DNA from: Nitrobacter sp. NHB1
GTDB lineage: Bacteria > Pseudomonadota > Alphaproteobacteria > Rhizobiales > Xanthobacteraceae
DNA: 64,000 nt
Direction of reading: 5' to 3'
NCBI RefSeq assembly: GCF_036964665.1
Contig: NZ_JBAMDA010000004.1
Span: forward strand, 1-64,000
Shown: in pieces, positions 6,758-58,047 of the stretch
How the letters are laid out: each line of letters opens with the position of its first letter
Position numbering within the stretch: position 1 is the first letter of the stretch
Program-made: the position numbers and the translations under genes
Notes under the pieces: generated by a model
Seen by the model: only the letters and a program-made list of their open reading frames with translations
What the model was told of the DNA's origin: nothing
Database searches by the model: none

Positions 6758-7084
6758 ATGAACGATCCCGAAACACGTCCGAGCGTTGGCAAAGATGTAT
6801 ACCAGGACCCTCAGGGAGATCACCCCCCCGCGGCGCCTGACAATATGCGCCAAGGGCGTCCATCCGCGCCTGCAGACGCGGGGAACCCGGACCCTGGATA
6901 CCCCGACCAAAACACTATGAACAAGCAAAACCCCGATCAACAGCAGAATCGAGGCGAGAGACCGCAGATAGAGCAGCAAGACGAAAAAACTCGCAAGGCC
7001 GAAATCACGAAGGCCGTAGAGGAAGATGATCCGGACAATAACCCTCAGGGCCAAGAAAAAACCGGATACAGCGGCGGTTTCTAA
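6758..7084 (+). CDS. Low-complexity, probably disordered hypothetical protein
   Basis: A 108-residue hydrophilic protein rich in P, Q, N, D and G, with almost no hydrophobic residues (for example PDQQQNRGERPQIEQQDEKT). It has no signal peptide. The start at 6758 is preceded by aaaaaggagtgccgct, a good ribosome site. A strong intrinsic terminator follows at 7116-7142. A GGAAC sits at about 6695 with an aatt 16 bases downstream, a weak match to a stress promoter. It may be a desiccation- or stress-type disordered protein; that is a guess from composition. Confidence 0.6.
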   Translation: MNDPETRPSVGKDVYQDPQGDHPPAAPDNMRQGRPSAPADAGNPDPGYPDQNTMNKQNPDQQQNRGERPQIEQQDEKTRKAEITKAVEEDDPDNNPQGQEKTGYSGGF

Positions 7085-7115
7085 TCGAGCCGTGCAGTCG
7101 CGCTCGCTTTACTCG

Positions 7116-7142
7116 AAGGCCGCCCCTTGGGCGGCCTTTTTC
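7116..7142 (+). terminator. Intrinsic terminator
   Basis: The stem aaggccgcc/ggcggcctt closes on a short loop and is followed by a run of T. It lies 32 bases after the stop of the disordered-protein gene and just before the IS256 insertion. Confidence 0.85.
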
Positions 7143-7165
7143 ATTATAGAAAACCCGCCGGAGCG

Positions 7166-8482
7166 GGTTCATGCGGGGATGTCCCGATCTGGCGCCTTCA
7201 ATCGTCGGAAGCCCTTGTTGGCCTCGATCATGCCGGCCGCGACCCATCGCAAGGCCATACCGGCATCCCGCCAGCGTTTGACGTTGCGGGTGACGCGGCG
7301 AATGGTGCCCATCATGTTCTCGGCGATGTTGGTACAGGCGAGCGATCGACGAAGCTCCTTTGGCAGCTTCAACCGGACCATGGTCAGGATTTCGTCTAGG
7401 CCTTCGAGGATGCTGGCCGCTACGCCAGGCCATTGCTGGTCGAGTCGACGCGCGAGATTGCGGATCAAGTTTTCAGCCTTGTCGGCGTCATCGAGCTCCC
7501 AGGCCTGGCGCAGCACCCGACGGGTGGCCGCATGATGCTCTTTCGGCAGGCGTTCCATGATGTTGCGCGCCTTGTGGATCTGGCAGCGCTGGATCGCGGC
7601 GGCCGAACCGAAGGTACGGCGGATCGCCTTCGACAATGCTTTTGCGCCGTCGACGATAAACAGTCTTGGCATCGTCGGGTCGAGCCCGCGCACGACCAGG
7701 TTGTCCAGCAGGGGCCTGAACCGTCGCGGCGTTCTCGCTCGCCCCTTCCACCAGCGCCAGCGGATGCTTGTTGCCTTCGCCGTCAACCCCGATCGCGGCG
7801 ACCAGCACGAGATCGCCGCCGAGATGCAGCCCGTCGATTTGCACCACCAGAAGGTCGAGCGCGGATAGATCGGCAGCCATGAAGTCGGCCAGCCGCGCCG
7901 CCGACAGCGCTACGAACCTCCGCGAGGCCGCCGACTTCGAAACCCCCGATCCGGGCGGTGCCGGCACGTCACCCTCGGGCAGCCGGACAGCGCGACCGAA
8001 CCGGCGCGTCGACACATTGATCAGCATCAGGTTCATCGCCCAGCGACCGAGCCAGTCCTCCTGCGCCGCCGTTTCCCAGCTCGGGATCGTGATCTCGCGG
8101 CCGTCCACGCCCCGGGCCCGCGGGCGCTCGACCTCGATCTTGCCGCCGTGGAAGCCGATCCGCCCCCGCGTTCGGCCCCAACGGTGCGCCCGCCGCGCCG
8201 CATCGCGACCGTGGCGTGGCCCGCAGGCCGCCGTGACATCCGCTTCCATCATCGTGCCGAGCACTTCGATCCCTGCCGTAAGGCAGAACCGATCGAAGCG
8301 CGCCCGCACTTCCGCAAACGCTTCGTCCACAGCTCCGGTCGCCGGCAAACCAGCCGGTGTGATATCTCTCGTCATGGCGTTGCTCTCCTTGTGGAATCAG
8401 CACCCCGAGCCTACCGGCTCAAGGTGGGCAACGCCGACCTCTTCAGAAATTCAACAGAACCCGGGACATCCCCGGTTCATGC
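7166..8482 (-). mobile_element. IS256-family insertion sequence with 9-bp target duplication
   Basis: The element spans 7175-8473 (1299 bp). Its ends read ggggatgtcccg and cgggacatcccc. It is flanked by the direct repeat ggttcatgc at 7166-7174 and 8474-8482, as expected for this family. The intact repeats point to a recent insertion. The transposase stop codon is supplied by the target duplication, because the final tga lies just outside the inverted repeat. Confidence 0.9.
7169..8375 (-). pseudogene. IS256-family (mutator-type) transposase, frameshifted
   Basis: The reading frame from 8375 gives a typical mutator transposase: CGPRHGRDAARRAHRWG, then the DDE-region motif LLVVQIDGLHLGGDLVLVAA. 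Near 7720 one extra C in ggcccctgctgg shifts the frame. The rest (LLDNLVVRGLDP, then RLFIVDGAKALSKAIRR, then CTNIAENMMGTIRRVT) continues in a second frame to 7169. All catalytic segments survive across the two frames, so this is either a single-base mutation or a sequencing error in an otherwise complete enzyme. Confidence 0.85.
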
Positions 8483-8604
8483 AGTCTCAATCTTTTTAGC
8501 TGGCCGCTAGACTGGGACTTGAATTTTTGAGACCATGCGGGGCATCAATCATCGCTCTATAACCAAGAGACATGTGCCCGCGCCCAAACCTCCAAGATTG
8601 ACAG

Positions 8605-8630
8605 CCCGCCATGCCCGGCGGGTTTCTTTT
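8605..8630 (+). terminator. Intrinsic terminator-like hairpin
   Basis: The stem cccgcc/ggcggg is followed by tttctttt. No ORF lies directly upstream. Confidence 0.6.
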
Positions 8631-8705
8631 GTCCGGAACTCCTGCCCCTCGCCGGCATTAACCGGCCGGGACGGGGGGATAACTTGGCTGGTCCACCCCC
8701 GAACC

Positions 8706-8744
8706 AAAAAGGCCCGCATGGCACCTCGTCCGGCGGGCCTTTTT
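8706..8744. terminator. Bidirectional terminator hairpin
   Basis: The stem aaaaaggcccgc/gcgggcctttttg has A on the left and T on the right, so it can stop transcription from either strand. It closes the putative small transcript that would start near 8665. Confidence 0.7.
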
Positions 8745-8869
8745 GGTGGAGCACAACGGATGACCCTTGGTGACCTATCGCGTGACCTTTTTGTCGGGAA
8801 CGAATGCGTGCCTGCGGGCATTGAATGAGTGGATGGCCAGCTCCGTCTACCCTATGGGTGGTGTAATGA

Positions 8870-8908
8870 CCCGCCGGTGACCTCTCGCCGGCGGGTTTCC
8901 ATTTTTCA
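8870..8908 (+). terminator. Intrinsic terminator-like hairpin
   Basis: The 8-bp stem cccgccgg/ccggcggg is followed by a T-rich tail (tttccattttt). No coding region precedes it. Confidence 0.6.
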
Positions 8909-9099
8909 ATTAATCCGCGCTCCGCAGTCGGTGAACTCGATTTCGCCGCCCGGCAGTTCTCGCCAGGAATCGACCGCGGATATATACGCGAGCCGGCCGG
9001 CGATCGAGAAGCGCCGGCGCCGTCTGGCGGTCCTGCTCGCGGATGTCTCACCCATCGTCAGCCTTGGCTACCGGCGCCGTACGGCACATGTCGTTCGGG

Positions 9100-9402
9100 C
9101 TACGTATTCTTTGCCTTGAAATGTTGGCACCAGCCATTGGGGCTAATTCCGCCCTCGACCAACTCGCACTGGTTTGGAGCCTGGAAGTGCTGGCACATTT
9201 GACAACGCTGGTTTCCGTTTGGCTTGTCCTGGTATTTGGCTTCCGATTTGCTGATCTTTTGCTGCTGGGTCTGCGCATAAATGGGAAAAGCCGTGCTGGC
9301 CAATGCCGCGGCAAGCCCGATCGTTCTCATCAGGTCTCGGCGTGACCATACCGCAAAGCTACTTGGACGAAACGAGAGATCACGTGACGTTTTGTTCTTC
9401 AT
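9100..9402 (-). CDS. High-potential iron-sulfur protein (HiPIP), Tat-exported
   Basis: A 100-residue precursor of a HiPIP, a small soluble periplasmic electron carrier with one [4Fe-4S]3+/2+ cluster. It passes electrons from cytochrome bc1 or an outer donor to a terminal oxidase or reaction centre. The four cluster cysteines are C67, C70, C79 and C92 (CQMC, QCE, WCQHF). A twin-arginine signal (SRRDLM at 20-25, then a hydrophobic run ending AYAQ-like) is present. ATG 9402 has gaggagaac upstream. An EcfG-like promoter lies at 9450-9474 on this strand. In some iron oxidisers a HiPIP works with outer-membrane cytochromes, which is of interest given the cluster at 51-58 kb. Confidence 0.88.
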   Translation of the reverse strand: MKNKTSRDLSFRPSSFAVWSRRDLMRTIGLAAALASTAFPIYAQTQQQKISKSEAKYQDKPNGNQRCQMCQHFQAPNQCELVEGGISPNGWCQHFKAKNT

Positions 9403-9449
9403 TGTGTTCTCCTCGCAGTTAAGTGGCACAGGCATATCGCCCGTGAGCC

Positions 9450-9474
9450 AACTGAATCGTATTATAAAGGTTCC
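9450..9474 (-). promoter_or_regulatory. EcfG-type promoter for the HiPIP gene
   Basis: On the minus strand GGAAC is followed by 16 bases and AGTT, one base from the consensus GGAAC-N16-CGTT of the alphaproteobacterial general stress sigma factor. It lies about 48 bases upstream of the HiPIP start. The spacer contains ttataat, so a housekeeping -10 is an alternative. Confidence 0.5.
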
Positions 9475-9668
9475 TATCGGTGGGTTGGCAGGCAGGTCGC
9501 TCCCGCGTTCGACAGCACAGTCACCGACCTCACGGATTGAGATCGGTGGACCGTAGCCCGTCAAGTCTTCCACATTCATCAGACTCTTTGCATGCGCTCA
9601 GAACTTAGCTGGCAGGTCTCGACGCGCCTTATACCGTGATCCGCATGACGTCAGCATGTGGACACGCC

Positions 9669-9838
9669 ATGGAACATCACACCAAGCTTCTGCAATTCGC
9701 GCACTGAAATCGCTTTCGGGGGCAATCGACGCGGCGGCGAATCGCGAGCTTCAAACCAAATCTGAATACGTCCGCCGCTCCGTGATTGATCGGCTGAGGG
9801 CTGACGGCATCGATCCGTCGTTCCCGGCGACGGCTTGA
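9669..9838 (+). pseudogene. Ribbon-helix-helix-like small protein, frameshifted
   Basis: The start MEHHTKLLQF (9669) is followed by a stop after two codons. A second frame then continues ALKSLSGAIDAAANRELQTKSEYVRRSVIDRLRADG to 9838. Joined, the product resembles CopG/Arc-type ribbon-helix-helix proteins, in which a short strand precedes two helices ending in SEYVRRSV. A single missing base near 9699 explains the break. Confidence 0.6.
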
Positions 9839-9856
9839 GCGAGTGAAGGCCACAAC

Positions 9857-9958
9857 ATGATCAACCCGCTTCAGCTTCCATCCTCGCAAGCGTTCACGCC
9901 GCAGCTTTTGCAGCTCGTATCCTCAATCAACCAAAGCCAGAAGCCCCAGACGCTATGA
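9857..9958 (+). CDS. Possible 33-residue ORF
   Basis: Reads MINPLQLPSSQAFTPQLLQL and a polar tail, ending in TGA at 9956-9958. It starts 18 bases after the frameshifted ribbon-helix-helix gene. I do not recognise it. The codon use is reasonable, but no family supports it. Confidence 0.3.
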   Translation: MINPLQLPSSQAFTPQLLQLVSSINQSQKPQTL

Positions 9959-9959
9959 G

Positions 9960-10193
9960 GATGCCACCCAGTACTTTTCACCTCGGCCAAATCATACAGA
10001 GGCATCCGTAGAGGTCTCCGCCATCAGGCGTATTTCGCTCTGATAGACAATGACAAGATCGGTGGATGTGAAGGGAATTCGCTGAACAGTTTGCCCGGCA
10101 GAGTGATCTCGATGTCCAAGCCGCCAACTGGACAGGTGCGGGCGTAGCTTCCTTGCAGTTGTTCGTTGATTGTAAGATCCAGAAGCTTCGGGT
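9960..10193. other. No recognisable gene
   Basis: A short stretch between the small ORF and the IS256 element. The minus strand can be read as fragments (for example LLDLTINEQLQGSYARTCPV), but these end in stops and match no family I know. It is probably a cut gene remnant. Confidence 0.35.
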
Positions 10194-18003: not shown

Positions 18004-18822
18004 TCAGAACGTTTTCAAACCGATCTCCTGCCCTTTGGTAAGGCACACCTCTTTTATACCTCCGGGGCGAAGCATGGCCATCGGTCGCCGCGATACGCCA
18101 TCCGGTGGGCCTTTTAGCACTTGGAATTGCGTATCGTTGCCGAATTGAACGAAACGAATGTCAAAGCTCTCCTTGCCTAGTTTGAGGTCGCGAACAGTTA
18201 TTTCGGGCAGCCAATCGGGTAGGACGGGATCGACATATAGTTTGCCGTTTGGCGCATCCGGCTGAAATCCCAGTATGGCCTGGAGAAGAGAAAACATCGT
18301 TCCCGCGGCCCAGCCCTGAGGAACATTGGCGCCGAGATATTGCACCGGGAATGATCCCAGTTCTTTCTGCGTGCCAGCGTAAAGCTCCGGTACTTGGTCC
18401 AACTCAAAGAAATCAATCGCGCGCGTGACGGCCTCGGCAATCCTATTGGCTTCGTCATGGAAGCCATACCGTTTCATACCTTGGGCAATGAAGCCGTTAT
18501 CGTGCGGCCACACTGCGCCAACCTGATAGTGATACGGATTGAAGCTAACGTGATCGGACGACAAGGTGCGGATACCCCAGCCGCTCCACATATCCGGTCG
18601 CATTAGTCGTTCGACCACTCGTCGCGCTCGTTCCGGGGGCACAATCCCCGACCAGAGACATTGTCCCGGGTTCGATGCGAGGGAGAGAACCTGCTTTTTG
18701 TCGCCGTCAAGGCAAAAGGCATAAAAGCCTATGTCCTCGTTCCAAAACACGTCATTGAAGTGGTCGAATAGCGCGGCAGCCTTGGCGCGCAAGGCGTCGG
18801 CGGCAGCCGGCTTTTGCAGTTT
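18004..18822 (-). pseudogene. C-terminal fragment of an amylo-alpha-1,6-glucosidase/glycogen-debranching-type enzyme
   Basis: About 270 residues of the (alpha/alpha)6 catalytic barrel of a glycogen debranching-like hydrolase. Readable segments are LFDHFNDVFWNEDIGFYAFC, SNPGQCLWSGIVPPERA, GWGIRTLSSDH, VGAVWPHDNGFIAQGMKRYG and LGANVPQGWAAGTMFSLLQA. The N-terminal half is missing: upstream of about 18822 the sequence switches to a cyoA remnant on the opposite strand. The 3' end is intact. Its loss fits the general decay of this carbohydrate region. Confidence 0.8.
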
Positions 18823-18895
18823 CCTGCTGCTGCCGTTCTTTGCCTGGCGATATCGCTATGGCAACAAGACCTCAAAATATACGCCTAAGTGGGAC
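18800..18895 (+). pseudogene. cyoA (quinol oxidase subunit II) remnant
   Basis: In frame with cyoB lies a ~25-residue piece, FLLLPFFAWRYRYGNKTSKY, then TPKWD. It matches the end of TM2 and the following loop of CyoA (W-x-YR-x-x-N-x-x-x-x-Y-x-P-x-W). The signal peptide before it and the cupredoxin domain after it are absent. It is joined directly to the cyoB start. Confidence 0.65.
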
Positions 18896-20938
18896 ATGCT
18901 CCAGCGCCCCACCGAAAGCAACATTATCAACGGCTGCATCGCCACTGCGGCCGCGTCGATGGTGGTGATCGGCGCAATCTTGCTGGTCACGCTGCTGACG
19001 AGGTACAAGTTATGGCACGCGCTTTGGTCGGACTGGATGACCAGTGTCGACCACAAGAAGATCGGCATCATGTACGTGACGATCGCGCTCGTCATGCTGG
19101 TACGTGCGCTCATCGAAGCGGCGTTGATGCGGGGACAGCAGGCATTTGGCCTGGGTGGCGGCTTTCTCTCGCCGGATCATTTCGCGCAACTGTTCAGCAC
19201 GCACGGCACCATCATGACTTTTTTCATGGCGATGCCATTCCTTACCGGTATCATCAATTATGTGATGCCGTTGCAGATCGGCGCGCGCGACGTATCCTTC
19301 CCCGTGCTCAATTCCATCAGTCTAGGACTGACTGCGGCGGGCGCAGCACTTGTGATGGTGTCGCTGGTGATTGGCAAATTCTCCACTGGTGGCTGGTTTG
19401 GTTATCCGCCCTACACGGAGGCGACGTTCAGTCCCGGCGTCGGCCCGGATTACTGGATCTGGGCGCTTTCGTTGGCTTCGCTCGGATCCACCTTCACGGG
19501 CATCAACTTTGCCGTCACTATTTATAAGGAGCGAGCGCCCGGCATGAATTTGACGCGGATGCCACTGTTCACGTGGACCGCGCTATGTACCAGCGTCATC
19601 ATGATTTTCGCGATGCCGCCGTTGACCGTGGCTACGGCGCAACTGGCCCTTGATCGCTATCTTGGGTTCCACTTTTTCACCAATGCCCTTGGTGGCAACA
19701 TGATGAACTTCGCCAACTTGTTCTGGTTGTTTGGACATCCGGAAGTCTACATCCTGATCCTGCCGGCCTTCGGTGTCTATTCGGAGATCATTTCGACATT
19801 TTCCGGCAAGACGCTGTACGGCTACCTATCGCTGGTGATGGCCACCATGGCGATCGCGATCCTGTCGTTCACAGTGTGGCTGCACCACTTCTTCACCATG
19901 GGGCAGAGCGCCAACATCAATGCGGTGTTCGGTATCGCTTCGATGCTGATCGGAATTCCCACCGGAGTGAAAATCTATGACTGGATGCTGACGATGTTTC
20001 GCGGCAGGGTGCGCTTCACCGTGCCAATGGTCTATTCGATCGGCTTCATCCTGCTTTTTGTTCTCGGTGGCATGACCGGCATCCTGCTGGCTGATCCCAC
20101 CGTCGATTATCAGGTGCACAACACGGTGTTCCTGGTTGCCCATTTCCACAATGTTGCAGTGCCGGGCGTGTTGTTTGGCATGATTTCCGCCTATCATTTC
20201 TGGTTTCCCAAGGCGTTCGGCTTTCGCCTTAACGAGCGCTGGGGCATGCTTTCAGCGTTATGCTGGATCTTCGGGTTCATGCTCGCGTTCTTCCCGCTAT
20301 ATGCGTTGGGACTCATGGGTCTTCCTCGGCGCACGGTGGCCTACGCCCAGCCCTCATATGTGCCGCTCGAATGGGCGGCGTTCCTTGGCGCGCTGCTGAT
20401 TCTTGTCGCGTTGGCAGCGCTGGCAATACAGCTTTGGGTGTCCATCAAACGTCGGAACGAGAACCGTGTTCTCGCGGGCGACCCTTGGGATGGCCGCAGT
20501 CTGGAATGGGCGGTGTCGGCGCCACCGCCCGAATACAATTTTGCGGTGATCCCCGTGGTCAAGGGCCGCGATGCATTCACCATGTCCAAAGAAGATGGCA
20601 GCGCCTATCAGCGGGCCGATACTTATAAGGATATCGAGCTACCAAAGAATAGCGCCATGGGCCCCTTGATCGGGCTGATTGGTTTCGTGCTCGCCTTCGG
20701 CCTCGTCTGGCATATCTGGTGGATAGTGATCTTGGCTTTCGCGGCCGCGATAGCGGCCATGATCATCCGTGGTTTCGCGCGCGATACTACCCGCATCGTC
20801 CCGGCGCAGGACGTCCGCCAGCAAAGCGACCGCTGGCTAAACGCCGTGGCAGTCGCTACCGCCATCTCCCGTGCGGACGAACGCAGCCCGGCCAACGACG
20901 GTCTCGCTCAGCATCAGGCCAATGGGGTAGTGCCATGA
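18896..20938 (+). CDS. cyoB: Cytochrome bo3-type quinol oxidase subunit I
   Basis: About 680 residues with the 12+ membrane segments of a haem-copper oxidase subunit I. It receives electrons from ubiquinol, reduces O2 to water and pumps protons. Ligand motifs are FSTHGTIMTFF (low-spin haem), HPEVYILILPAFG (CuB His and the cross-linked Tyr) and WLHHFFTMG (CuB). VAHFHNVAVPG carries the haem ligands. ATG 18896 (MLQRPTESNI) is chosen because the residues before it belong to a cyoA remnant. The stop overlaps the cyoC start (ATGA). With subunit II reduced to remnants, it is doubtful that a working complex forms. Confidence 0.9.
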   Translation: MLQRPTESNIINGCIATAAASMVVIGAILLVTLLTRYKLWHALWSDWMTSVDHKKIGIMYVTIALVMLVRALIEAALMRGQQAFGLGGGFLSPDHFAQLFSTHGTIMTFFMAMPFLTGIINYVMPLQIGARDVSFPVLNSISLGLTAAGAALVMVSLVIGKFSTGGWFGYPPYTEATFSPGVGPDYWIWALSLASLGSTFTGINFAVTIYKERAPGMNLTRMPLFTWTALCTSVIMIFAMPPLTVATAQLALDRYLGFHFFTNALGGNMMNFANLFWLFGHPEVYILILPAFGVYSEIISTFSGKTLYGYLSLVMATMAIAILSFTVWLHHFFTMGQSANINAVFGIASMLIGIPTGVKIYDWMLTMFRGRVRFTVPMVYSIGFILLFVLGGMTGILLADPTVDYQVHNTVFLVAHFHNVAVPGVLFGMISAYHFWFPKAFGFRLNERWGMLSALCWIFGFMLAFFPLYALGLMGLPRRTVAYAQPSYVPLEWAAFLGALLILVALAALAIQLWVSIKRRNENRVLAGDPWDGRSLEWAVSAPPPEYNFAVIPVVKGRDAFTMSKEDGSAYQRADTYKDIELPKNSAMGPLIGLIGFVLAFGLVWHIWWIVILAFAAAIAAMIIRGFARDTTRIVPAQDVRQQSDRWLNAVAVATAISRADERSPANDGLAQHQANGVVP

Positions 20939-21558
20939 GCCAGCAAGTCTTCAAGCATCCGGGACTGAATCTCGGACCCGCGCATGGCAGGGATAACGAT
21001 GCCGCCGAAACCGTGATGTTCGGGTTCTGGGTCTTCCTTATGAGCGATTCCATCCTGTTCAGCATGGTGTTCGCCACTTACGTGACGTCGTTGAATAGCA
21101 CCGCGGGGGGCCCAGGGCCGCATCAGCTATATGACATCAAGAGCGTCTTCATCGAGACACTGCTGCTGCTGGCCAGCAGCTTTACTTTTGGCATGGCATC
21201 GCTGGCATTGAAGTACAAGCGCAGCAAAGCGCGGTTGATCGTTTGGCTGGCTGTAACGCTGGTACTGGGTGTTGCCTTCCTGGGCTTCGAACTGCACGAC
21301 TTCAACAGCATGTTTGCCAAAGGCGGCATACCCAGCCGTAGTGGTTTTCTGTCCGCATTCTTCGATCTGGTACCGCTGCACGGGCTGCACGTTACCGCCG
21401 CCTGCGTCTGGCTGATCTGCCTGGTGGGCCAGATCGCGCGCTACGGCCTGGATACGAAGACCAAGCTCGGTATCATGCGGCTTTCGCTGTTCTGGCATTT
21501 TCTCGACATCGTCTGGATCGCGATGTTCTCGGTGGTTTACCTGGCGGGGCTAGCATGA
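20935..21558 (+). CDS. cyoC: Cytochrome bo3 quinol oxidase subunit III
   Basis: A 207-residue membrane protein with five predicted helices. It carries the subunit III signature: AAETVMFGFWVFLMSDSILFSMVF, a Glu in VFIETLLLLASS, DLVPLHGLHV-TAACVWL and a final WHFLDIVWIAMFSVVYL. It supports oxygen delivery and stability of the oxidase core. The start overlaps the cyoB stop and the stop overlaps the cyoD start (ATGA both times). Confidence 0.9.
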   Translation: MSQQVFKHPGLNLGPAHGRDNDAAETVMFGFWVFLMSDSILFSMVFATYVTSLNSTAGGPGPHQLYDIKSVFIETLLLLASSFTFGMASLALKYKRSKARLIVWLAVTLVLGVAFLGFELHDFNSMFAKGGIPSRSGFLSAFFDLVPLHGLHVTAACVWLICLVGQIARYGLDTKTKLGIMRLSLFWHFLDIVWIAMFSVVYLAGLA

Positions 21559-28486: not shown

Positions 28487-30025
28487 TCAGTGGAAATAGT
28501 CCTGACCGCGGATGTTGCCGTGGCGCAGGGGGTGGTCGTCGGTTGCCTCGTCGAGGAATGCGCGATCCAGTCCGTTCTTGAGGATCGAACGGATCGAGGC
28601 GACGGAATGCGCCTTGATCAGGATGCCGCGCCGGCAGGCGGCGTCGATGCGGGCATCGTCGTAGCTCCTGGTCAGCGCCAGGATGCCGAGGCAGGTGCGA
28701 AAGCCTTGTTCTGGATGCGGCCGGGCCGCGATGACGGCCTGGAAAAACGCCGCGGTCGATGGGCCGATCTTCTCGCCGGCGGCGATCAGCCCTCCCGGCG
28801 TCCACTTGCCGTAGCGGCGATGCGCGCTCGGCATGTGGTCGGCAATTGTGGTGTGGCCGCGCCGGTTCGGCGCACGCGGGTGGCTGGCAATCCTCTGGCC
28901 CTTGTGGAAGATCTCGACCGTCTTGTCGGTGATGCGAACATCGACGAGTTCACGGATCAGGCGATACGGCGTGGAATACCAATGGCCATCGACCTCGACG
29001 TGATAATCGGGGGCGACGCGGCAACGCTTCCAGCGCGCAAAGACATAGGGCTGCTCCGGCAACTCCCCCAGCTTGGGACGGTCGACCTCGGCAAACAGTT
29101 CGGCACGGCTGGTGCCGAATCCGCGCATCTGCCGGGCGTTGAGCTCGACAACCAGGGTACGAATCGCAGCATTCAGCTCTGCCAGGGAAAAGAACCGTTG
29201 ATTGCGCAGGCGCGCCAAAATCCAGCGCTGTGCGATCTGGACGGCGACCTCGACCTTGGCCTTGTCCTTCGGTCGTCTCGGCCTCGCCGCAAGGATCGCG
29301 GTGCCGTAATGACCGGCCATCTCGGCATAGGTTCGGTTGATCCCGGGATCGTAGCGATCGGGGTTGGTCACGGCGGCCTTGAGATTATCGCAGACCACGA
29401 ACTTCGGCACGCCGCCGAGATACCTGAACAGGTTGGTATGCACGCCGATCCAGTCGGACAGGCTCTCGCTTGGGCAAGCCTCGGCGTAGGTGTAGTTCGA
29501 GGCTCCCATCGCCGCGACGAACAGCTTCATGGCGTGCGCTTCGCCGGTGATCGGATCGACGACGTCGATGGTGTCGCCGGCAAAATCAACGAACACCTTC
29601 TCCCCGCCGATGTGGGTCTGGCGCATCGACGGGCGCACGCGGTTCTTCCAGGCCTCGAAGGTCGTGCAAAACCAGGTGTAGCCAAAGCCGTCCGGATTGG
29701 CGGCGCGATACTCTTCCCAGAGCAGCAGGCGCGTCACGCTGCGGCGGCGAAGCTCCTTCTCGACAAAAGCCCAGTCCGGTATCGGGCGCCGGTCGCTTTG
29801 CGACGCTGACGCCGGTGCCGGGAATAGCAACAGTTCCAAGCCATCGTCGTCCATTCCTTCCGGAAGTGGCCAGGCGAGCCCCGCCAGGCGCGCTCGCCGC
29901 ACGTAGCCATGGACCACGCCATTACTCACCCCCAAGGTCCGCGCGATGACCCGCTCGGTCAACCCTTGGTGCCTCAAACGTAAAACTTCTCTGATCCGGC
30001 GCATCGACAATCTCTCGGTAGGCAT
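28487..30025 (-). CDS. istA: IS21 transposase IstA
   Basis: A 512-residue DDE transposase. The N-terminal helix-turn-helix (SMRRIREVLRLRHQGLTERV) is followed by the rve catalytic domain with FVDFAGDTIDVVDP, PKFVVCDNLKAAV and AKVEVAVQIAQRW. A C-terminal beta region follows (VARFKRCRV-type HWYSTPYRLI). Full length and directly upstream of istB. Confidence 0.93.
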   Translation of the reverse strand: MPTERLSMRRIREVLRLRHQGLTERVIARTLGVSNGVVHGYVRRARLAGLAWPLPEGMDDDGLELLLFPAPASASQSDRRPIPDWAFVEKELRRRSVTRLLLWEEYRAANPDGFGYTWFCTTFEAWKNRVRPSMRQTHIGGEKVFVDFAGDTIDVVDPITGEAHAMKLFVAAMGASNYTYAEACPSESLSDWIGVHTNLFRYLGGVPKFVVCDNLKAAVTNPDRYDPGINRTYAEMAGHYGTAILAARPRRPKDKAKVEVAVQIAQRWILARLRNQRFFSLAELNAAIRTLVVELNARQMRGFGTSRAELFAEVDRPKLGELPEQPYVFARWKRCRVAPDYHVEVDGHWYSTPYRLIRELVDVRITDKTVEIFHKGQRIASHPRAPNRRGHTTIADHMPSAHRRYGKWTPGGLIAAGEKIGPSTAAFFQAVIAARPHPEQGFRTCLGILALTRSYDDARIDAACRRGILIKAHSVASIRSILKNGLDRAFLDEATDDHPLRHGNIRGQDYFH

Positions 30026-43633: not shown

Positions 43634-45091
43634 CTAGGCGTATTTGAACAGCGCCATGAAGCCGAAATCCATGTGCAATTGTTGATGGCAATGAAAGAGC
43701 GTGTCGCCGGGATTGTCGGCGATAAAATCAACTTCGGCTTTCTGAAACCCACCCAGCATCACAACGTCTTTCACGATGCCAGCGGTGGCCCGCCCGTTGA
43801 TGCGCGTCAGCTCGAAACTGTGCCGATGCAGATGCAAGGGGTGGATGTCATCGCTGGCGTTGGCAAACGCGAGGCGATAGCGCCTGCCCTGACGGAGGGT
43901 GAACATCGGCGTCATGGTATCCATTGAAAATGCCTGCCCATTGAGCGTCCAGCGATTGAACCCGTGCTCGGCGGCATTGTGCTTGACGATGGTCAGCGCA
44001 ATCGTCTCGTCGGGGGCGACCGGTGGCGCGGCGTCAGCCTTGCCAAATCGCGTATAGTCCCAGCGGAACGGGTTGGGCTTCATCCATAGCGGCTTGCCGG
44101 CCTTGCCGGCGTATTCCACCACAATCCCCATACCGTGGCCGCGGTCATCATCCGCAAGATCGCCCATCACCCAAACACCCGGATGTTTCATCTCCACAAT
44201 TGCCGAGACCCGCTCCGCCGTGCCTAGCCAGAGCACCGGCACGTCCGCAGACAACGGCACCGCATTTCCGTCGAGCGCAACGACCCGAAAGAGGTGTCCG
44301 GGCAGCGCAAGACTACGTATCTCGGTCGCGCTGGCGTTGAGAACATGGAAGAGCACGTGTTCGCCTTCCTTGACCCGGATCGGATCCCGCTGCCCGAGCA
44401 TACGGCCATTGATGCTGAACAGTTCGTAACTGACTTCATAGCCTTTGGGACCGCCTTTGGTCTCCTCGTCGGCCGCTTTTCCGATCTGCTGCAATGACGC
44501 AATCGGTACTCCAGGCAGCGCGTCACTCGCCATATCGCCGCCCCGGCTAAACGACGGGTTGAATTCCTTCATGACCAGAAACACTTCACGGTCATAGGCT
44601 CCCGGATCCTCCTTTGGTTCGATGTAAACCGGACCCGCCAGACCGCTATAGGTGCCGCGGCTGAGATCGGCGCCCGCAACGACATGGGTATGATAGAAAC
44701 GAAAGCCGGTTGGACCTGGCATAAAAGCGACCCGGCGCATGCCGTGCGCCGAAACGTAAGGCGTGCCCTCCTCCGCCGCACCATCAACCTGGCTCGGTAT
44801 GGTTTGCCCATGCCAATGGACGAGTTCGGGCGTATCCGTGTCGTTGAACAAATCGATCACCACCCGTTTCCCCTGCTTGAAACGCAGAAGCGGCCCCGGA
44901 AACTGATCGTTGTAAAGGGTCGTCGATACGATGTGATTGGGGGCGAGCTCGATCAATCCTTCAGCCATGCGCAGCGTGTAGTCGGCTCTCTCGCTCGCAT
45001 TCTCGGCGGCGGCCCAAACAGGGTGTGGTGCAGCGGCTACCATTGGTGCAAGGCCGGCGAGCTTCAGCAAGGCGCGGCGATTGAGTTTCAC
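43634..45091 (-). CDS. Tat-exported multicopper oxidase
   Basis: A 485-residue periplasmic enzyme with three cupredoxin domains that couples one-electron oxidations to O2 reduction. A twin-arginine-type signal (NRRALLKLAGLAPMVAA) ends in AWA-like residues. Copper ligands are H92-W-H94-G, H134-T-H136, HPLHLHRH (about 417-424) and HCHQQLH (467-473). The residue at the axial type-1 copper position is Phe478 rather than Met, which in laccases raises the copper potential. It is divergent from the PadR gene with a palindrome between them. Possible roles: Cu(I) or Mn(II) oxidation, or phenol oxidation. Confidence 0.9.
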   Translation of the reverse strand: MKLNRRALLKLAGLAPMVAAAPHPVWAAAENASERADYTLRMAEGLIELAPNHIVSTTLYNDQFPGPLLRFKQGKRVVIDLFNDTDTPELVHWHGQTIPSQVDGAAEEGTPYVSAHGMRRVAFMPGPTGFRFYHTHVVAGADLSRGTYSGLAGPVYIEPKEDPGAYDREVFLVMKEFNPSFSRGGDMASDALPGVPIASLQQIGKAADEETKGGPKGYEVSYELFSINGRMLGQRDPIRVKEGEHVLFHVLNASATEIRSLALPGHLFRVVALDGNAVPLSADVPVLWLGTAERVSAIVEMKHPGVWVMGDLADDDRGHGMGIVVEYAGKAGKPLWMKPNPFRWDYTRFGKADAAPPVAPDETIALTIVKHNAAEHGFNRWTLNGQAFSMDTMTPMFTLRQGRRYRLAFANASDDIHPLHLHRHSFELTRINGRATAGIVKDVVMLGGFQKAEVDFIADNPGDTLFHCHQQLHMDFGFMALFKYA

Positions 45092-49172: not shown

Positions 49173-49541
49173 TTACCGGATTACCACACCGCCCACGCCT
49201 GGCACACCGATGAATGAGCCATGGTGGTGGTGGTGATGATGGTGGTGGTACCGACGACGGTACTGATGATGGTGATGATGATGACGGAAGTAACGGTGGT
49301 GGTGATGATGATGGTGGTGATACTGCGCCAACTGCACTCCGTCAGCGGAGTTAGCGTCAAGTCTGGCGTTGTCGGCCACGAGGGCTTCGGTTGCATGGTC
49401 GATTGGCGTCAGCAGGTCTGCGTAAGATTGCGCGGCAAGCGGGTCATTTGTGATCAGAACCGAGGCTGTCGACGCGTGAGCTCCGCCAATCGCGGCTACG
49501 GCCGCGACCGCCCCCAATAATCCAGCTATTTTCTTGTCCAT
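49173..49541 (-). CDS. Exported histidine-rich protein
   Basis: A 122-residue precursor with a signal peptide (MDKKIAGLLGAVAAVAAIGG, cleavage after AHA). A short spacer with YADLLTPIDHA precedes three histidine runs at 75-82 (8 His), 87-92 (6 His) and 99-107 (9 His), then a hydrophobic GVPGVGGVVIR tail. Such proteins are common in Bradyrhizobium and are assumed to bind Ni, Zn or Cu in the periplasm. The plus-strand open frame over the same bases is an artefact of the repeated His codons. Confidence 0.8.
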   Translation of the reverse strand: MDKKIAGLLGAVAAVAAIGGAHASTASVLITNDPLAAQSYADLLTPIDHATEALVADNARLDANSADGVQLAQYHHHHHHHHRYFRHHHHHHQYRRRYHHHHHHHHHGSFIGVPGVGGVVIR

Positions 49542-51101: not shown

Positions 51102-51629
51102 CTAACTCTTGACCTTTTGCCATGCGTCTTGTGCGGCCGGTGGAAGTTTATCCATGTGTTTTAGGAAAAGGGCAAGTGTCCAAATCTGTCTGTCGGTGAG
51201 GGCATCCTTCCACGAGGGCATGGCCGTCCAGCGGACACCGTGTTTGATCTTCCAAAACGAAAAACCTTCGGGATCATCCTCAACGCCATGCGATGCTAGT
51301 TGAGGAGGTTTTGGATAAAGACCTTTCGCAACGGGCGATGCCGATTCACTACCTTTTGCCGTGCCGTGGCACATCGCGCAGTGCTTCGCAAACAAATTGA
51401 TGCCATCAATCAAATTTGCATCGGTTGTCGCGACAGGATTGGGACCCTTCGGCGCTTCGCGACTCAATAACGCATCTAGTGACGTACCAGCTATCCAAGT
51501 TTCGAGTGGGCCGGGCGTTGCGTCGGCGTTGGCCGGTATGACGCCACTCTGGATAAGAATATAACCACTAACAATTGCGGCGGCGATTGTTAACACGGCC
51601 CCGGCGACGAATCCTTTCAGCATGCCCAC
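51102..51629 (-). CDS. Membrane-anchored monoheme cytochrome c
   Basis: A 175-residue protein with an N-terminal membrane anchor or signal (GFVAGAVLTIAAAIVSGYIL) and one haem site C84-A-M-C-H88. The sixth ligand is probably Met136 or a nearby Met in the RWTAMPSWKDALTDRQIW segment. It is class I type, periplasmic, like electron shuttles that feed oxidases. It lies left of, and on the opposite strand to, the cytochrome genes at 54-58 kb. An ATG at 51623 is also possible. Confidence 0.87.
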   Translation of the reverse strand: MGMLKGFVAGAVLTIAAAIVSGYILIQSGVIPANADATPGPLETWIAGTSLDALLSREAPKGPNPVATTDANLIDGINLFAKHCAMCHGTAKGSESASPVAKGLYPKPPQLASHGVEDDPEGFSFWKIKHGVRWTAMPSWKDALTDRQIWTLALFLKHMDKLPPAAQDAWQKVKS

Positions 51630-53918: not shown

Positions 53919-54563
53919 TTAGTTCAATTCACTGACGTAGGCCGCGACAGCTCTGATCTGCGCATCAGTAAGGTCATGGGCGATCGGCTGCATGATCGCC
54001 GACGCATCTGGGTTGGCCTTATTCTGACCACGCTCTTTGTCCCAGTTTGTCAGCTTTTTTATCACGTAGTCATTAAGTTGACCTGCGAGACGCGGAAACT
54101 GTCCGACGCCCTTTGCTTCAGGTCCATGGCAGGACGCACAAGGGGGAACGTTGGCACCTGGAATGCCCTCATCGTAAATCTTCTTGCCCTCGGGCACGAT
54201 TGCTTTTGGCGCGCCGCCTAACGGCTTTGGCTTGAGATTTTTGAACTCGTCCGTCAGGGCCGCCAGCATCGCCGGGCTCAATGCATGGGCGACGTTGAAC
54301 ATTACCGGATTCCGACGCCGGTGTTCGATGAACGCCTTGAGCTGGTTCTCCACGTATTCGGGCTGCTGCCCCGCCAATCGCGGCATCGGGAAGGATCCGC
54401 GGAAGCCTTGCGCCTCGACGCCATGACAAGTCTTGCAATAGTCCGTCTTCGCCCTGAGCTCCGGGGCCGACACATGCCCGGTCTTCTCTTGCGCATGTGC
54501 CATCGTCGAGATGGAAGCAGCGACAACAAAGGCTGTTGTTCGCGTTAGCGATTGCAAATTCAT
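53919..54563 (-). CDS. Periplasmic diheme cytochrome c (c4-like)
   Basis: A 214-residue precursor. A signal peptide (residues 1-24, ending AHA) precedes two related haem domains: C43-KTC-H47 and C142-ASC-H146. Each is followed by a PRLAGQ motif and a helix ending VENQLKAFIEHRRRNP or VIKKLTNWDKERGQN. This is the cytochrome c4 or cytochrome c553-like tandem fold. It is divergent from the barrel gene. Two close relatives lie at 56716 and 57451. It is probably an electron shuttle across the periplasm to an oxidase. Confidence 0.9.
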   Translation of the reverse strand: MNLQSLTRTTAFVVAASISTMAHAQEKTGHVSAPELRAKTDYCKTCHGVEAQGFRGSFPMPRLAGQQPEYVENQLKAFIEHRRRNPVMFNVAHALSPAMLAALTDEFKNLKPKPLGGAPKAIVPEGKKIYDEGIPGANVPPCASCHGPEAKGVGQFPRLAGQLNDYVIKKLTNWDKERGQNKANPDASAIMQPIAHDLTDAQIRAVAAYVSELN

Positions 54564-54883
54564 GAGCGTCCCCGCCAATGATGTTCGCAAACTACGCGTA
54601 GCGCGTTGTTGTGGTCCAGTTGATTCTTGCGGCGTTCGCAAATCGACCTTCGACAAAAAAGTAGCATGGAGATGAGGCGACGCCTTTTCAAACGTTTCAC
54701 ACGCCAGTTGCTAATGTCTCTTAGAAGCATAAGCAACTGGCGTTGCGAAAATGTCTCGGGAGATTGAAATCTGATCTCGTGCGACGGATGTCGCTTGGTG
54801 GAGCGTGCAACTCTTGGCCTACTAACGCGAAGGTGATTCGTAGCCCTAACTTGCACCAAGCGCGCCGCAGCGGGATGCACGCG

Positions 54884-56449
54884 ATGTCGGACCACCGTTA
54901 CAGTGCAATTGAATGGGCTGTCAGGTGGCCTTTTACCGCACTCGCTCTTTTGGTCATCTCGATCGTCACGTTGACGATTAGCCTCGCGTCACCCGCGAAC
55001 GCACTGCCAAGCTTCGCGCGGCAGACCGGCCAGCCCTGCGGGGCATGTCATACGGATTTTCCCGCGCTTACTCCGTTCGGGCGAAGGTTCAAGCTACTCG
55101 GTTATACGACGGGAGGAGGCGAGTTCCGCACGTCGCCCTTCTCGTCAAACACTGGCCGCGACGTTCGCGCCGAGTACAACAAGCTCAGAGACTACGTGAA
55201 GGCGCTGGACAATTCTGCGCCTACGTCTGAGCCAGACGCCAACAGCAAGGAATGGGTCCCGCCGATCTCGATGATGGCGATCGTGGGCTACACGCATACC
55301 CACGGGCCAACGGTTGCACCGCCGACCTATCCCTATCAAGCAAATGACAACGTGGTGCTTTCGCCCGTCAGCGGTTTCTGGGGCGGAGCCATCACGGATC
55401 ACGTCGGAGCGTTCGCCCAGGTCACTTACAGCGGGCCAGACCCCTTGTCCGCGCTGACCGGTACGCCGGCGGACCAGTTCAAGCATACATGGTCGTGGGA
55501 CAATACCGACGTTCGCTACGCCAATACTGCGAACCTCGGTCCTTTCGACTTTATCTATGGCATCACCGCCAACAACAACCCGACAGTTCAGGACTTGTGG
55601 AATACGACGCCGGCATGGTCGTTCCCCTATGCAGCCTCGACGCTTGCAGGCACACCCAACGCCAGCACCATGCTCGAGGGGGCGTTCGCCGCTCGTGTCG
55701 GAGGCGTCGGGGCTTACACTTCAATTAACGACCTGCTTTACCTCGAATTCACCGCGTACAAGACGCTCGGCTTTAACGCCCAGAATTCGCTCGGCATGAA
55801 TCCGTTCGACGGCCCTGGTCGCTTCGGAGGTGTGGCGCCCTATTGGCGGATCGCGCTGGAGCCGCACTGGGGCAGGCATTCGCTGATGGTCGGCACGTTT
55901 GGAATGTATCTGGACGTGCATCCGTGGCTCGATCCGACCTTCGTAACTGGGACCACCGGGACATTCCAGCAGTCGGACAAATTCACCGATGTTGGCTTCG
56001 ATACGCAATACCAGTATCAAGGCGACAATTACTGGCTGACATTGCGCGGCAGTTATATTCGTGAATTCCAGCGGCTGGATGCGAGCTTCGCCAATCTGGC
56101 CGCCGCCAATCCGACTAATCTGCTCAACAGCCTGAAGCTGCAGGCCTCACTGGCCTTTGGCGCCGACAATCGGATCGTATTGACTGGCCAATACTTCAAC
56201 ATCTGGGGCACGGCGGACGCCAATCTCTACGGTATCGACGCCAACACGGGTCTTGTGCTCACACCGAACAGCGATGGGTGGCAGGCCGAGATCGCCTATA
56301 TCCCGTTCGGCGCCAGCAAGTCATTTGGCTGGCCATGGTTCAACGCCCGTATCGGCCTACAATACACCTACTACAACAAGTTCAATGGCACGACCGTCGC
56401 CGCCAACGACAACAATACCGTGTTCCTCCACGCCTGGTTTGCGATGTAG
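54884..56449 (+). CDS. Outer-membrane cytochrome-barrel protein (Cyc2-like candidate)
   Basis: A 521-residue protein. A signal peptide ends at about residue 40 (SPANA). One haem site follows, C52-GAC-H56, in the setting FARQTGQPCGACHTDFPALT, then PFGRRFKLLGY. The next ~430 residues alternate hydrophobic and polar residues with Gly and aromatic girdle residues (for example VSGFWGGAITDHVGAFAQV, YWLTLRGSYIREFQRLDA) and end FLHAWFAM, as in a beta barrel. This one-haem-plus-porin layout resembles Cyc2, the outer-membrane Fe(II) oxidase family. The start at 54884 is chosen because it puts the hydrophobic signal near the N-terminus; 54743 or 54875 are in-frame alternatives. No Fe-binding site can be read from the sequence. 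Confidence 0.7.
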   Translation: MSDHRYSAIEWAVRWPFTALALLVISIVTLTISLASPANALPSFARQTGQPCGACHTDFPALTPFGRRFKLLGYTTGGGEFRTSPFSSNTGRDVRAEYNKLRDYVKALDNSAPTSEPDANSKEWVPPISMMAIVGYTHTHGPTVAPPTYPYQANDNVVLSPVSGFWGGAITDHVGAFAQVTYSGPDPLSALTGTPADQFKHTWSWDNTDVRYANTANLGPFDFIYGITANNNPTVQDLWNTTPAWSFPYAASTLAGTPNASTMLEGAFAARVGGVGAYTSINDLLYLEFTAYKTLGFNAQNSLGMNPFDGPGRFGGVAPYWRIALEPHWGRHSLMVGTFGMYLDVHPWLDPTFVTGTTGTFQQSDKFTDVGFDTQYQYQGDNYWLTLRGSYIREFQRLDASFANLAAANPTNLLNSLKLQASLAFGADNRIVLTGQYFNIWGTADANLYGIDANTGLVLTPNSDGWQAEIAYIPFGASKSFGWPWFNARIGLQYTYYNKFNGTTVAANDNNTVFLHAWFAM

Positions 56450-56473: not shown

Positions 56474-56716
56474 ATGAAGATAGTGCCCTTTGCGAATGCC
56501 GCGACGCTTGGGATCGCCCTCACTGACTCTGCACTTGCGGCCGACATGCCGCGCAAGGCGGAGCCGCCATTCGCTACCCGTTTTACCTGGACCGGATGCT
56601 ACCTCGGTGGCCAGTCCGATCCGACCAACGTATTTCCAGACAATGAGGATGTGGGGCAGAACATTCAGGTCGTGAAGGTCGGATTGAGCTTTCGTATTGC
56701 GGGGAACGAATCCTGA
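56474..56716 (+). pseudogene. Outer-membrane beta-barrel protein with large internal deletion
   Basis: An 80-residue frame. MKIVPFANAATLGIALTDSALA is a signal peptide, ADMPRKAEPPFATRFTWTGC resembles the start of Omp25/31-type Rhizobiales porins (usually LPxPAPPVxxTWTGxYxGxx), and NIQVVKVGLSFRI is their last strand. About 150 residues between are missing, so no barrel can form. It lies 24 bases after the cytochrome-barrel gene and has an aggaga ribosome site. Its TGA overlaps the next ATG. Confidence 0.7.
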
Positions 56717-57393
56717 TGCCAGCGCGACCTGCATTGCAGCGGACACCTCGCCGTCGGGCATTTACGGTCCGCGTTGCCTTGCAGGCGATAGTGCTGATCA
56801 CAGCTTTCCCAATCGCTTGTCGGGCGGATGATCGAGTCCAGGTCGCGAAGGGGGGTCTCGAGGCCAAGCTGGAATATTGCGAGACATGTCATGGCCTGTC
56901 GGCTCAGGGATATCGCGGCTACTTTCCGATGCCGCGGCTGGCGGGACAGAATACCCAATATATCGAGAACCAATTGCGGGCCTTCATCGAGCGGCGGCGT
57001 ACCAATCCGATCATGGCCAACGTCGCCCACGTACTGAGCTCATCAATGGTCTCGGCGCTGGCGACGCACTTCAGGAGACTGGATCCGAGACCGATTGGAG
57101 GCGCGCCGAGAGGGTCTATGGCTACAGGCAAGCGCATCTATGAAGAAGGGCTTCCTGAATCCAACGTGCCAGCATGCTCTGCATGCCACGGATCCGACGG
57201 CAAAGGGCAGAACGAAATTCCACGGCTGGCAGGTCAATTGTATGAGTACACCGTCGGCCAGCTCTCGGGTTGGGCAAGGGTGAGAGGCCAGGGATCGGCG
57301 GCCGACACTTCAGCGATTATGGCGCCGACGGCGCGCAATATGACGCGACCACAGATTGAGGCGGTGGCTGCATATGTCAGCTATCTGCAATGA
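56716..57393 (+). CDS. Diheme cytochrome c (c4-like), second copy
   Basis: A 225-residue precursor with a signal segment (ALQAIVLITAFPIACRA). Two haem sites are C55-ETC-H59 and C154-SAC-H158. It is closely like the protein at 53919, sharing GYFPMPRLAGQNTQYIENQL and IERRRTNPIMANVAHVLSSS. The ATG shares its A with the upstream stop (TGATG). It belongs to the run that starts with the barrel gene, suggesting a functional link. Confidence 0.88.
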   Translation: MPARPALQRTPRRRAFTVRVALQAIVLITAFPIACRADDRVQVAKGGLEAKLEYCETCHGLSAQGYRGYFPMPRLAGQNTQYIENQLRAFIERRRTNPIMANVAHVLSSSMVSALATHFRRLDPRPIGGAPRGSMATGKRIYEEGLPESNVPACSACHGSDGKGQNEIPRLAGQLYEYTVGQLSGWARVRGQGSAADTSAIMAPTARNMTRPQIEAVAAYVSYLQ

Positions 57394-57450: not shown

Positions 57451-58047
57451 ATGACGGGCATGAAACTGAAAGCAGCGCTGCTGGTGATTCTCGCCTCGAT
57501 TGCTCCCGCCGCGGCCTGGGACGGCACTAGTATTCACAATTGTACTTGGTGCCACGGGACATCAGGGCAGGGCTATACGGTCGCGCCCCGCTTGGCCGGG
57601 CAGCGGCCGGCCTATGTCGAAAGCCAGATAAGAAGTTTCCGCGATCACTCGCGAGACAATCCTTTCTCCAGGCAGTACATGTGGGGTGCAGTGGCAGCAC
57701 TTGGTCCTCGCGCGGCAAGCGACCTGGCAGCCTACTTCGCGACGATCCATCCGAAGCCTGCAAACGACGGCAATCCCGCTCTCACGGCGAAGGGAAAAAC
57801 GATTTACATGGACGGAATTCCCGAGGCCAATATCGCCTCGTGCTATGCCTGTCACGGTCCTAACGCCGAAGGTGTGCGAGATATTCCTCGCCTCGGGGGG
57901 CTCTCCTATTTCTATCTCAAGTCCCGGCTCGTGCAGTGGGGCCAAGGTTATCATTCGGGCATGGGAACGCCGATGCCGGTCGTTGCCCGCTCCTTGGGCC
58001 CGGACGAAATTGAAGCGTTGGCTTCTTATATCAGCTTCGTCAGGTAG
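57451..58047 (+). CDS. Diheme cytochrome c (c4-like), third copy
   Basis: A 198-residue precursor. A short signal (LKAALLVILASIAPAAA) is followed by haem sites C31-TWC-H35 and C131-YAC-H135, each with a PRLAG/PRLGG-type motif (APRLAGQRPAYVESQIRSFR and IPRLGGLSYFYLKSRLVQWG). It is more divergent than the other two but of the same fold. It lies 57 bases after the second copy and is probably in the same operon as the barrel protein. Confidence 0.87.
   Translation: MTGMKLKAALLVILASIAPAAAWDGTSIHNCTWCHGTSGQGYTVAPRLAGQRPAYVESQIRSFRDHSRDNPFSRQYMWGAVAALGPRAASDLAAYFATIHPKPANDGNPALTAKGKTIYMDGIPEANIASCYACHGPNAEGVRDIPRLGGLSYFYLKSRLVQWGQGYHSGMGTPMPVVARSLGPDEIEALASYISFVR

Follow-up and report, generated by a model that had tools for sequence, protein, structure and literature searches.

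A Cyc2-like cytochrome-porin gene and three diheme c4-type cytochrome genes on a plasmid of Nitrobacter sp. NHB1

Described Cyc2 systems and the Nitrobacter locus

Cyc2 proteins are recognised by the segment AXPXFAR[Q/K][T/Y] ahead of a CXXCH motif and by PXL after it, with OprO and OprP as the structural templates given for the barrel (PMC8406198). The same source presents a tree of 1,593 Cyc2 sequences and gives biochemical evidence of Fe(II) oxidation for three diverse representatives; Cyc2PV-1 has been produced heterologously in E. coli (PMC8406198). Many homologues occur in organisms without known iron oxidation, and function is described as uncertain beyond the characterised clades (PMC8406198, PMC5566968). 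In the rusticyanin operon (cyc2-cyc1-cup-coxBACD-rus) of Acidithiobacillus, Acidihalobacter and Acidiferrobacter, Cyc2 is partnered by a Cyc1-like c4 cytochrome, and the Acidithiobacillus protein has been linked to a dense cluster of homologues from Rhodanobacteraceae, Hyphomicrobiales, Burkholderiales, Nitrosomonadales and Acidiphilium (PMC10654088). A Bradyrhizobium cyc2 cluster from a pyrite-oxidising enrichment encodes a HiPIP together with three periplasmic cytochromes, including Cyc1 and CycA1 homologues (PMC5566968, citing Percak-Dennett 2017), and the electron route considered below has already been proposed for it (PMC5566968). Since cyc2-like genes have been reported in nitrite-oxidising Nitrospinaceae and UBA8639 MAGs (PMC11995701), a Cyc2 homologue in a nitrite oxidiser has precedent; in the literature searched, the coverage of which was partial, no report of Cyc2 in Nitrobacter was found.

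The locus analysed here lies in a stretch of 64,000 nucleotides (hereafter, the window) that corresponds to C4:1-64000, where C4 is a contig of 208,920 bp in a 3.79-Mb genome. The contigs of this genome measure 3,306,651, 276,398 and 208,920 bp, plus about 2.5 kb. C4 carries RepB, RepC and ParA-type genes along with conjugation-type secretion genes. Three NarG/NxrA-type genes of 1,214 aa are found on the largest contig, one of them grouped with genes for a diheme cytochrome c, an FKBP-type protein and an MFS transporter; the alphaproteobacterial setting read from the DNA in the preliminary description is borne out by this context. The genome of 'Candidatus Nitrobacter laanbroekii' NHB1 is reported to have three copies of nxrA and to comprise a chromosome of 3.3 Mb and two plasmids, of 0.28 and 0.21 Mb (PMC12815253). 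The strain is described as an acidotolerant nitrite oxidiser; with 500 uM nitrite it grows at pH 5.0-7.5, and when less nitrite is supplied its growth can still be detected at pH values as low as 3.5. The main text of the genome paper (PMC12815253) has 0 occurrences of the word 'iron'.

The features of the window discussed below are the following.

9100..9579, minus strand: possible HiPIP (PF01355, E 0.0023, below the Pfam cut-off), 45 kb from cyc2
18731..21558, plus strand: haem-copper oxidase subunits I and III (PF00115, PF00510)
53919..54656, minus strand: divergent diheme c4-type cytochrome, Cyc1-like (PF00034; PDB 1h1o, E 1.9e-30)
54884..56449, plus strand: Cyc2-family outer-membrane cytochrome-porin, 521 aa, protein P0001 (ORF, Cyc2 consensus, at least 567 relatives, fold, tree)
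54884..55003, plus strand: probable signal peptide, residues 1-40 (by eye; model helix 4-34)
55037..55051, plus strand: single haem c attachment motif CGACH, residues 52-56 (conserved in alignment)
55265..56443, plus strand: predicted 16-stranded beta barrel, residues 128-520 (AlphaFold2/DSSP; Foldseek top match OprP 2o4v)
56474..56716, plus strand: small outer-membrane barrel gene remnant (80-aa ORF with a stop; both ends kept in frame, central part absent by comparison with kin)
56716..57393, plus strand: diheme c4-type cytochrome, Cyc1-like (PDB 1h1o, E 3.4e-27)
57451..58047, plus strand: diheme c4-type cytochrome, Cyc1-like (PDB 1h1o, E 2.5e-26)

Compared by description only, the Bradyrhizobium cluster and the window share a Cyc2 accompanied by three periplasmic c-type cytochromes. 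They differ in that the HiPIP gene lies inside the Bradyrhizobium cluster, whereas the sole HiPIP-like ORF found in the window is the one 45 kb away, and in that the window has a Nitrobacter host, a plasmid replicon and a small outer-membrane protein (OMP) gene reduced to a remnant. The gene had been put forward in the preliminary description as the best candidate for a previously undescribed system. That claim does not survive the comparison, because a cluster of this kind, with a HiPIP and three cytochromes beside cyc2, had been described from Bradyrhizobium in 2017 (PMC5566968), and the family already has its 1,593-sequence tree (PMC8406198). The system is of a known kind, and what is new is the organism in which it is found and the plasmid that carries it.

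With the rusticyanin operon the window shares a Cyc1-type c4 cytochrome adjoining cyc2, present here in three copies and not one. It differs in having no cox, cup or rusticyanin gene adjacent: none was found in the six Pfam-scanned ORFs of 51-59 kb, the other ORFs there having been judged by eye. Assignment to that operon was rejected on gene order, the cox genes lying elsewhere on the plasmid. MtrAB, PioAB and MtoAB, in which a separate decahaem cytochrome is combined with a 26-strand porin, were likewise rejected, as P0001 has a single haem motif fused to a predicted 16-strand barrel.

Sequence and predicted fold of the cyc2-like gene product

The reading frame for P0001, taken from the ORF list of the window, is intact. 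Its first 40 residues, ending in ANA, are signal-like as judged by eye, and a single CxxCH follows at C52-H56 in the setting ALPSFARQTGQPCGACHTDFPAL. Residues 40-62 fit the published Cyc2 consensus (ALPSFARQT..CGACH..PAL). The pattern A.P.FAR[QK][TY].{2,4}C..CH...P.L occurs once in the six frames of the window and in none of 100 mononucleotide shuffles, and C52, C55 and H56 are invariant in all 77 aligned family sequences, an alignment that left out L016, L029, L075 and L078 of 80 loci. At 521 aa with one CxxCH, the protein is also longer than the 365 aa taken as the minimum for a Cyc2 with CXXCH. The intact frame at 54884-56449 and the lone haem motif behind a signal-like N-terminus, both already noted in the preliminary description, therefore stand. 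The aromatic ending claimed there was not found: P0001 ends in ...HAWFAM, with Met as the final residue, and the C-terminal residue is non-aromatic also in the ten closest loci (L016-L025).

Searches with P0001 returned no match in Pfam or NCBIfam and nothing significant among PDB sequences (best E 0.94), and a profile of eight relatives gave just two weak matches to PDB sequences (E 0.22 and 0.53). Across the 77 aligned members, Pfam returned WW_2 in two, PorV in one and nothing else, so that no Pfam model was found for the family.

The 77-sequence alignment was used for an AlphaFold2 prediction, which reached a mean pLDDT of 83.8 and a pTM of 0.82. Sixteen strands, counted from the DSSP strand list, are predicted over residues 128-520. 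The barrel seen in the earlier reading of the sequence is thus recovered, with a size of about 393 residues and not some 430. The same reading had looked to AlphaFold for a 16-strand barrel with an N-terminal haem plug; the strands are as envisaged. Confidence is low at residues 37-48 and over most of the segment 79-118 that links the plug to the barrel, so that the model does not fix the position of the haem plug.

A Foldseek search of the PDB with the model gave OprP (2o4v) as the top match with an E value of 2.4e-9. There were 259 matches with E <= 0.001, and the 50 listed of these are by title nearly all porins or outer-membrane channels. The superposition on OprP is loose, with an rmsd of 9.0 and TM scores of 0.40 by query and 0.49 by target. 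The phosphate porins OprP and OprO resemble P0001 in their 16-strand barrel and differ from it in sequence, the identity being about 11%; they are also not known to have a haem domain. A 16-strand barrel related to OprO and OprP, as used to recognise Cyc2, is what the predicted model contains.

Of the 77 aligned sequences, 74 share Met131, which lies close to the beginning of barrel strand 1. This residue was considered as a universal haem ligand and dropped, being present in 95 of 105 non-Zeta-like sequences versus 2 of 14 Zeta-like ones; for P0001 it is a candidate branch-specific haem ligand. Pairwise dN/dS of cyc2 against six relatives is 0.10-0.15, with dS of 1.2-1.5, near saturation. Such low values speak for constraint through the history of the family, and less so for constraint in the present strain.

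Relatives, neighbouring genes and periplasmic carriers

A scan of named genome contigs matched at least 597 stretches, and at least 567 relatives were confirmed. The best 80 of these are 34-79% identical to P0001 in the best segment, and the nearest among the matches listed come from Bradyrhizobium and from other bacteria, most of them Alphaproteobacteria. In nine of these loci (L016-L024, several from Bradyrhizobium) the counterpart is 63-79% identical to P0001. The relatives include members from groups of the dense cluster described around Acidithiobacillus Cyc2 (PMC10654088). Among 72,556 plasmid records, nine hold a Cyc2-like gene, including plasmids of Methylocystis, Acidiphilium and Caballeronia. 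Six of 61 genomes, the NHB1 genome counted, have a match at E <= 0.001, which in two (G011, G020) covers no more than a short part of the N-terminus, the ORFs there being 92-154 aa long; the gene is present in none of eight congeners. The Cyc2-like proteins encoded on Acidiphilium cryptum pACRY03 (L010) and on a plasmid of A. ferrooxidans YQ-N3 (L011) are identical and the genes around them are arranged alike, reflecting either a recently shared plasmid or a mixed culture, and a Caballeronia plasmid (L012) has HiPIP, cyc2-like and c4-type genes in succession at 6945-9962.

In a tree of 119 sequences, P0001 groups with L016 and L017 (SH-like support 0.91) within a clade of ten (support 0.93), at a distance of 0.21 from L016. 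The tree was rooted on probable zetaproteobacterial sequences and left out L075, L078, L011, the G443 sequence (L128/L141) and the duplicates L145, L147 and L148. Its references are stand-ins, namely the Cyc2 of genome G688 and family f61, and not the Cyc2 of A. ferrooxidans or M. ferrooxydans; f61, in which genomes are small and the gene is almost always present, is on these grounds and by its motif probably from Zetaproteobacteria. The smallest clade to include P0001 as well as the G688 Cyc2 comprises 91 sequences (support 0.94), and P0001 is 2.59 from the G688 protein versus 4.90 from the probable zetaproteobacterial sequences. On these distances P0001 branches nearer the rusticyanin-operon-like Cyc2 of G688 than the probable zetaproteobacterial Cyc2. 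The tree, which holds no named reference sequence, suggests a placement in FeGenie Cluster 2.

The G688 cluster contains, on one strand, cyc2, a cupredoxin-like ORF (Pfam E 0.085, below the cut-off), COX1, an ORF that by eye looks like heme A synthase, and a match to the rusticyanin family (137 bits, under the curated cut-off of 146.7). No c4 (Cyc1) gene was found in the 19 kb examined, and the Cyc2 motif there reads FARQL, not [T/Y]. By BLASTP this Cyc2 is 28% identical to P0001 over residues 14-521 (E 1e-51), so that the homology is full-length, and conserved residues are shared. A second cyc2 lies in G688 about 185 kb from the rusticyanin-operon-like cluster (L163, L162). P0001 has the N-terminal consensus and cytochrome-porin architecture also of Cyc2PV-1 and the Cluster 1 Cyc2 of neutrophilic iron oxidisers; it differs in that just 36 N-terminal columns align meaningfully with one probable zetaproteobacterial homologue, across a long branch. 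Taken with the consensus motif and the 16-strand barrel with OprP as top match, the homology to the G688 protein sustains the initial view of a Cyc2 relative and haem-porin, and P0001 is almost certainly a member of the Cyc2 family.

All three neighbouring c4 cytochromes, mutually 37-52% identical, have as best PDB match 1h1o ('cytochrome c-552'), the next chain being 8 to 12 orders of magnitude behind. We take 1h1o to be the A. ferrooxidans Cyc1/CYC41. Each c4 is closest to the gene at the same position in L016-L024, where that gene is present: the upstream one (53919-54656) has a counterpart upstream of cyc2 in eight loci (L017-L024; 54-78% identical), the first downstream (56716-57393) has counterparts in L016-L024 (63-76%), and the second (57451-58047) in eight of L016-L024 (59-75%), the contig of L022 ending earlier. 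Seven of the ten nearest loci keep the order upstream c4, cyc2, small OMP, c4, c4. Of the remaining three, L016 and L022 are truncated where their contigs stop, and in L025 every one of the three c4 genes follows cyc2. L016-L024 thus have the layout of the window where contigs allow, and the same cluster was found in Bradyrhizobium and kin. None of the window neighbours at 51102, 52431, 58483 and 43634 had a match in the listed loci, 30 from the family and seven from plasmids. P0001 and the three Cyc1-like diheme c4 cytochromes are best explained as one module.

Directly after cyc2 and ahead of the first downstream c4, all ten closest loci have a stop-to-stop ORF of 261-289 codons. The L017 copy was scanned and matched OMP_b-brl (PF13505), and the other nine look alike by eye. 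As this gene is a remnant in the window, the module may be decaying, or the small outer-membrane protein may be dispensable.

Carriers beside cyc2 were surveyed in 87 loci, of which 62 have at least 1.5 kb of flank on both sides. A c4 cytochrome, HiPIP or other CxxCH ORF is nearby in 48 of the 62: c4 within 2.5 kb in 18, HiPIP in 14, both in three, and another CxxCH ORF within 1.5 kb in 13. No carrier was found in the other 14 (profiles, 2.5 kb; CxxCH ORF, 1.5 kb), a figure that is slightly high, at least two being misses of the distance rule (L046, which has a c4, and L084, which has a CxxCH ORF). Matches to the c4 profile numbered 62 near cyc2 versus one beyond 4 kb, in 384 kb and 439 kb of DNA, respectively; for the HiPIP profile, which was seeded with the 23 matches from the same loci and is hence tuned in sequence and not in position, the counts were 23 versus one over the same lengths. 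These counts suggest that a cyc2 of this branch is usually accompanied by a small periplasmic one-electron carrier. A simpler test, which asked whether a CxxCH ORF lies no more than 600 bp downstream, was positive in 26 of 80 loci (the other 7 of the 87 being short of flank) versus 121 of 6,094 control windows. None of the ten closest relatives was picked up, since in these the small OMP gene comes between cyc2 and the c4 genes downstream, and the profiles with a 2.5-kb limit were used for this reason. From these loci, which are in part closely related (the ten nearest to P0001 are kin, L010 and L011 share one protein sequence, and a single MAG supplied both L028 and L029), c4 and HiPIP seem to be interchangeable beside cyc2.

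Elsewhere in the window, the HiPIP-like ORF at 9100-9579 is a possible extra carrier, its membership of the module being uncertain, and the oxidase at 18731-21558 is a possible electron sink. The plasmid has a second oxidase gene set (L104, C4 about 187300-191300), comprising SCO1, a cytochrome-c-fused coxB, coxA and, by eye, a coxC-like ORF. A multicopper oxidase gene with Pfam Cu-oxidase domains lies about 9 kb from the cyc2 module (43634-45091, minus strand), and a secreted-looking 122-aa protein with long histidine runs and no informative Pfam match is encoded at 49173-49541 (minus strand). The surroundings of the module on the plasmid are rich in transposases. One transposase, at 28487-30025 (IS21-like by eye), has an identical protein at four further places on plasmid and chromosome (L098, two copies in L102, and a cut copy in L106).

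Proposed role and rival explanations

The notion that P0001 moves electrons across the outer membrane, raised when the gene was first described, is well supported by the motif, the barrel, the homology to the G688 Cyc2 and the c4 partners. An outer-membrane conduit handing electrons to c4 cytochromes is likely, in our estimation. That the Cyc2-family protein and the three c4 cytochromes make up a module passing electrons inward, most likely from Fe(II), is our preferred reading and a fairly likely one; for Fe(II) as the natural donor of P0001, taken by itself, the balance is only slightly favourable. In such a module, the predicted barrel would sit in the outer membrane and, by analogy with published Cyc2 models, the haem-bearing N-terminal domain would plug its periplasmic end. 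A dissolved donor, most likely Fe(II), would enter the barrel from outside and reduce the haem. The c4 cytochromes, to go by neighbourhood and homology, may then ferry electrons over the periplasm, to end at a haem-copper oxidase (energy) or at bc1 (reverse electron flow). In Nitrobacter, electrons from nitrite enter the chain at the level of cytochrome c, and the cyc2 module could therefore hand its electrons straight to the chain already in place. At low pH, Fe(II) persists longer in air, and this, with the growth of NHB1 at pH 3.5-7.5 depending on nitrite, was counted in favour of the preferred reading.

The same conduit might instead do another job, exchanging electrons with a partner other than Fe(II) (reduced metals, humics or a partner cell) or detoxifying Fe(II) at the surface, and not serving energy gain. 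The spread of the family over at least 567 relatives, many Cyc2 hosts being without known iron oxidation (PMC8406198, PMC5566968), and the variation of partners among c4, HiPIP and other CxxCH ORFs are compatible with this. Against it are the three diverse Cyc2 with biochemical Fe(II) oxidation (PMC8406198) and the likeness of the c4 partners to the c4 of 1h1o, and we consider another job rather unlikely. The remnant adjoining cyc2 raises a different prospect, that of a decaying plasmid passenger with no present role in NHB1, which would also suit the transposase-rich surroundings and the absence of the gene from all eight congeners. However, cyc2 and all three c4 ORFs are intact, pairwise dN/dS is low and L016 lies near in the tree; a mere passenger appears improbable. 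The empty Pfam and NCBIfam searches and the lack of a significant PDB sequence match would even allow an ordinary porin or soluble cytochrome that carries CxxCH by chance, but the motif recurs in every one of the 77 aligned sequences, the consensus is absent from the shuffles and a barrel fold is predicted. Conservation of the haem motif together with the barrel contradicts such a coincidence, to which we give almost no credence.

Returning to the preferred reading of an inward-passing module fed most likely by Fe(II), we put forward tentatively, and as a doubtful extension, that it is a plasmid-borne, transferable module for iron oxidation. Fe(II) could be a second donor for a nitrite oxidiser of acid soil, or could be scavenged before it reacts with nitrite, and iron and nitrogen oxidation would be linked in one cell. 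Should P0001 function as a Cyc2, iron as well as nitrite could be oxidised by a Nitrobacter in culture. This would also suggest that plasmids can spread Fe(II) oxidation through the alphaproteobacteria of soil, and that Cyc2 proteins of this branch, for which no Pfam model was found, pair with interchangeable periplasmic carriers, either c4 or HiPIP.
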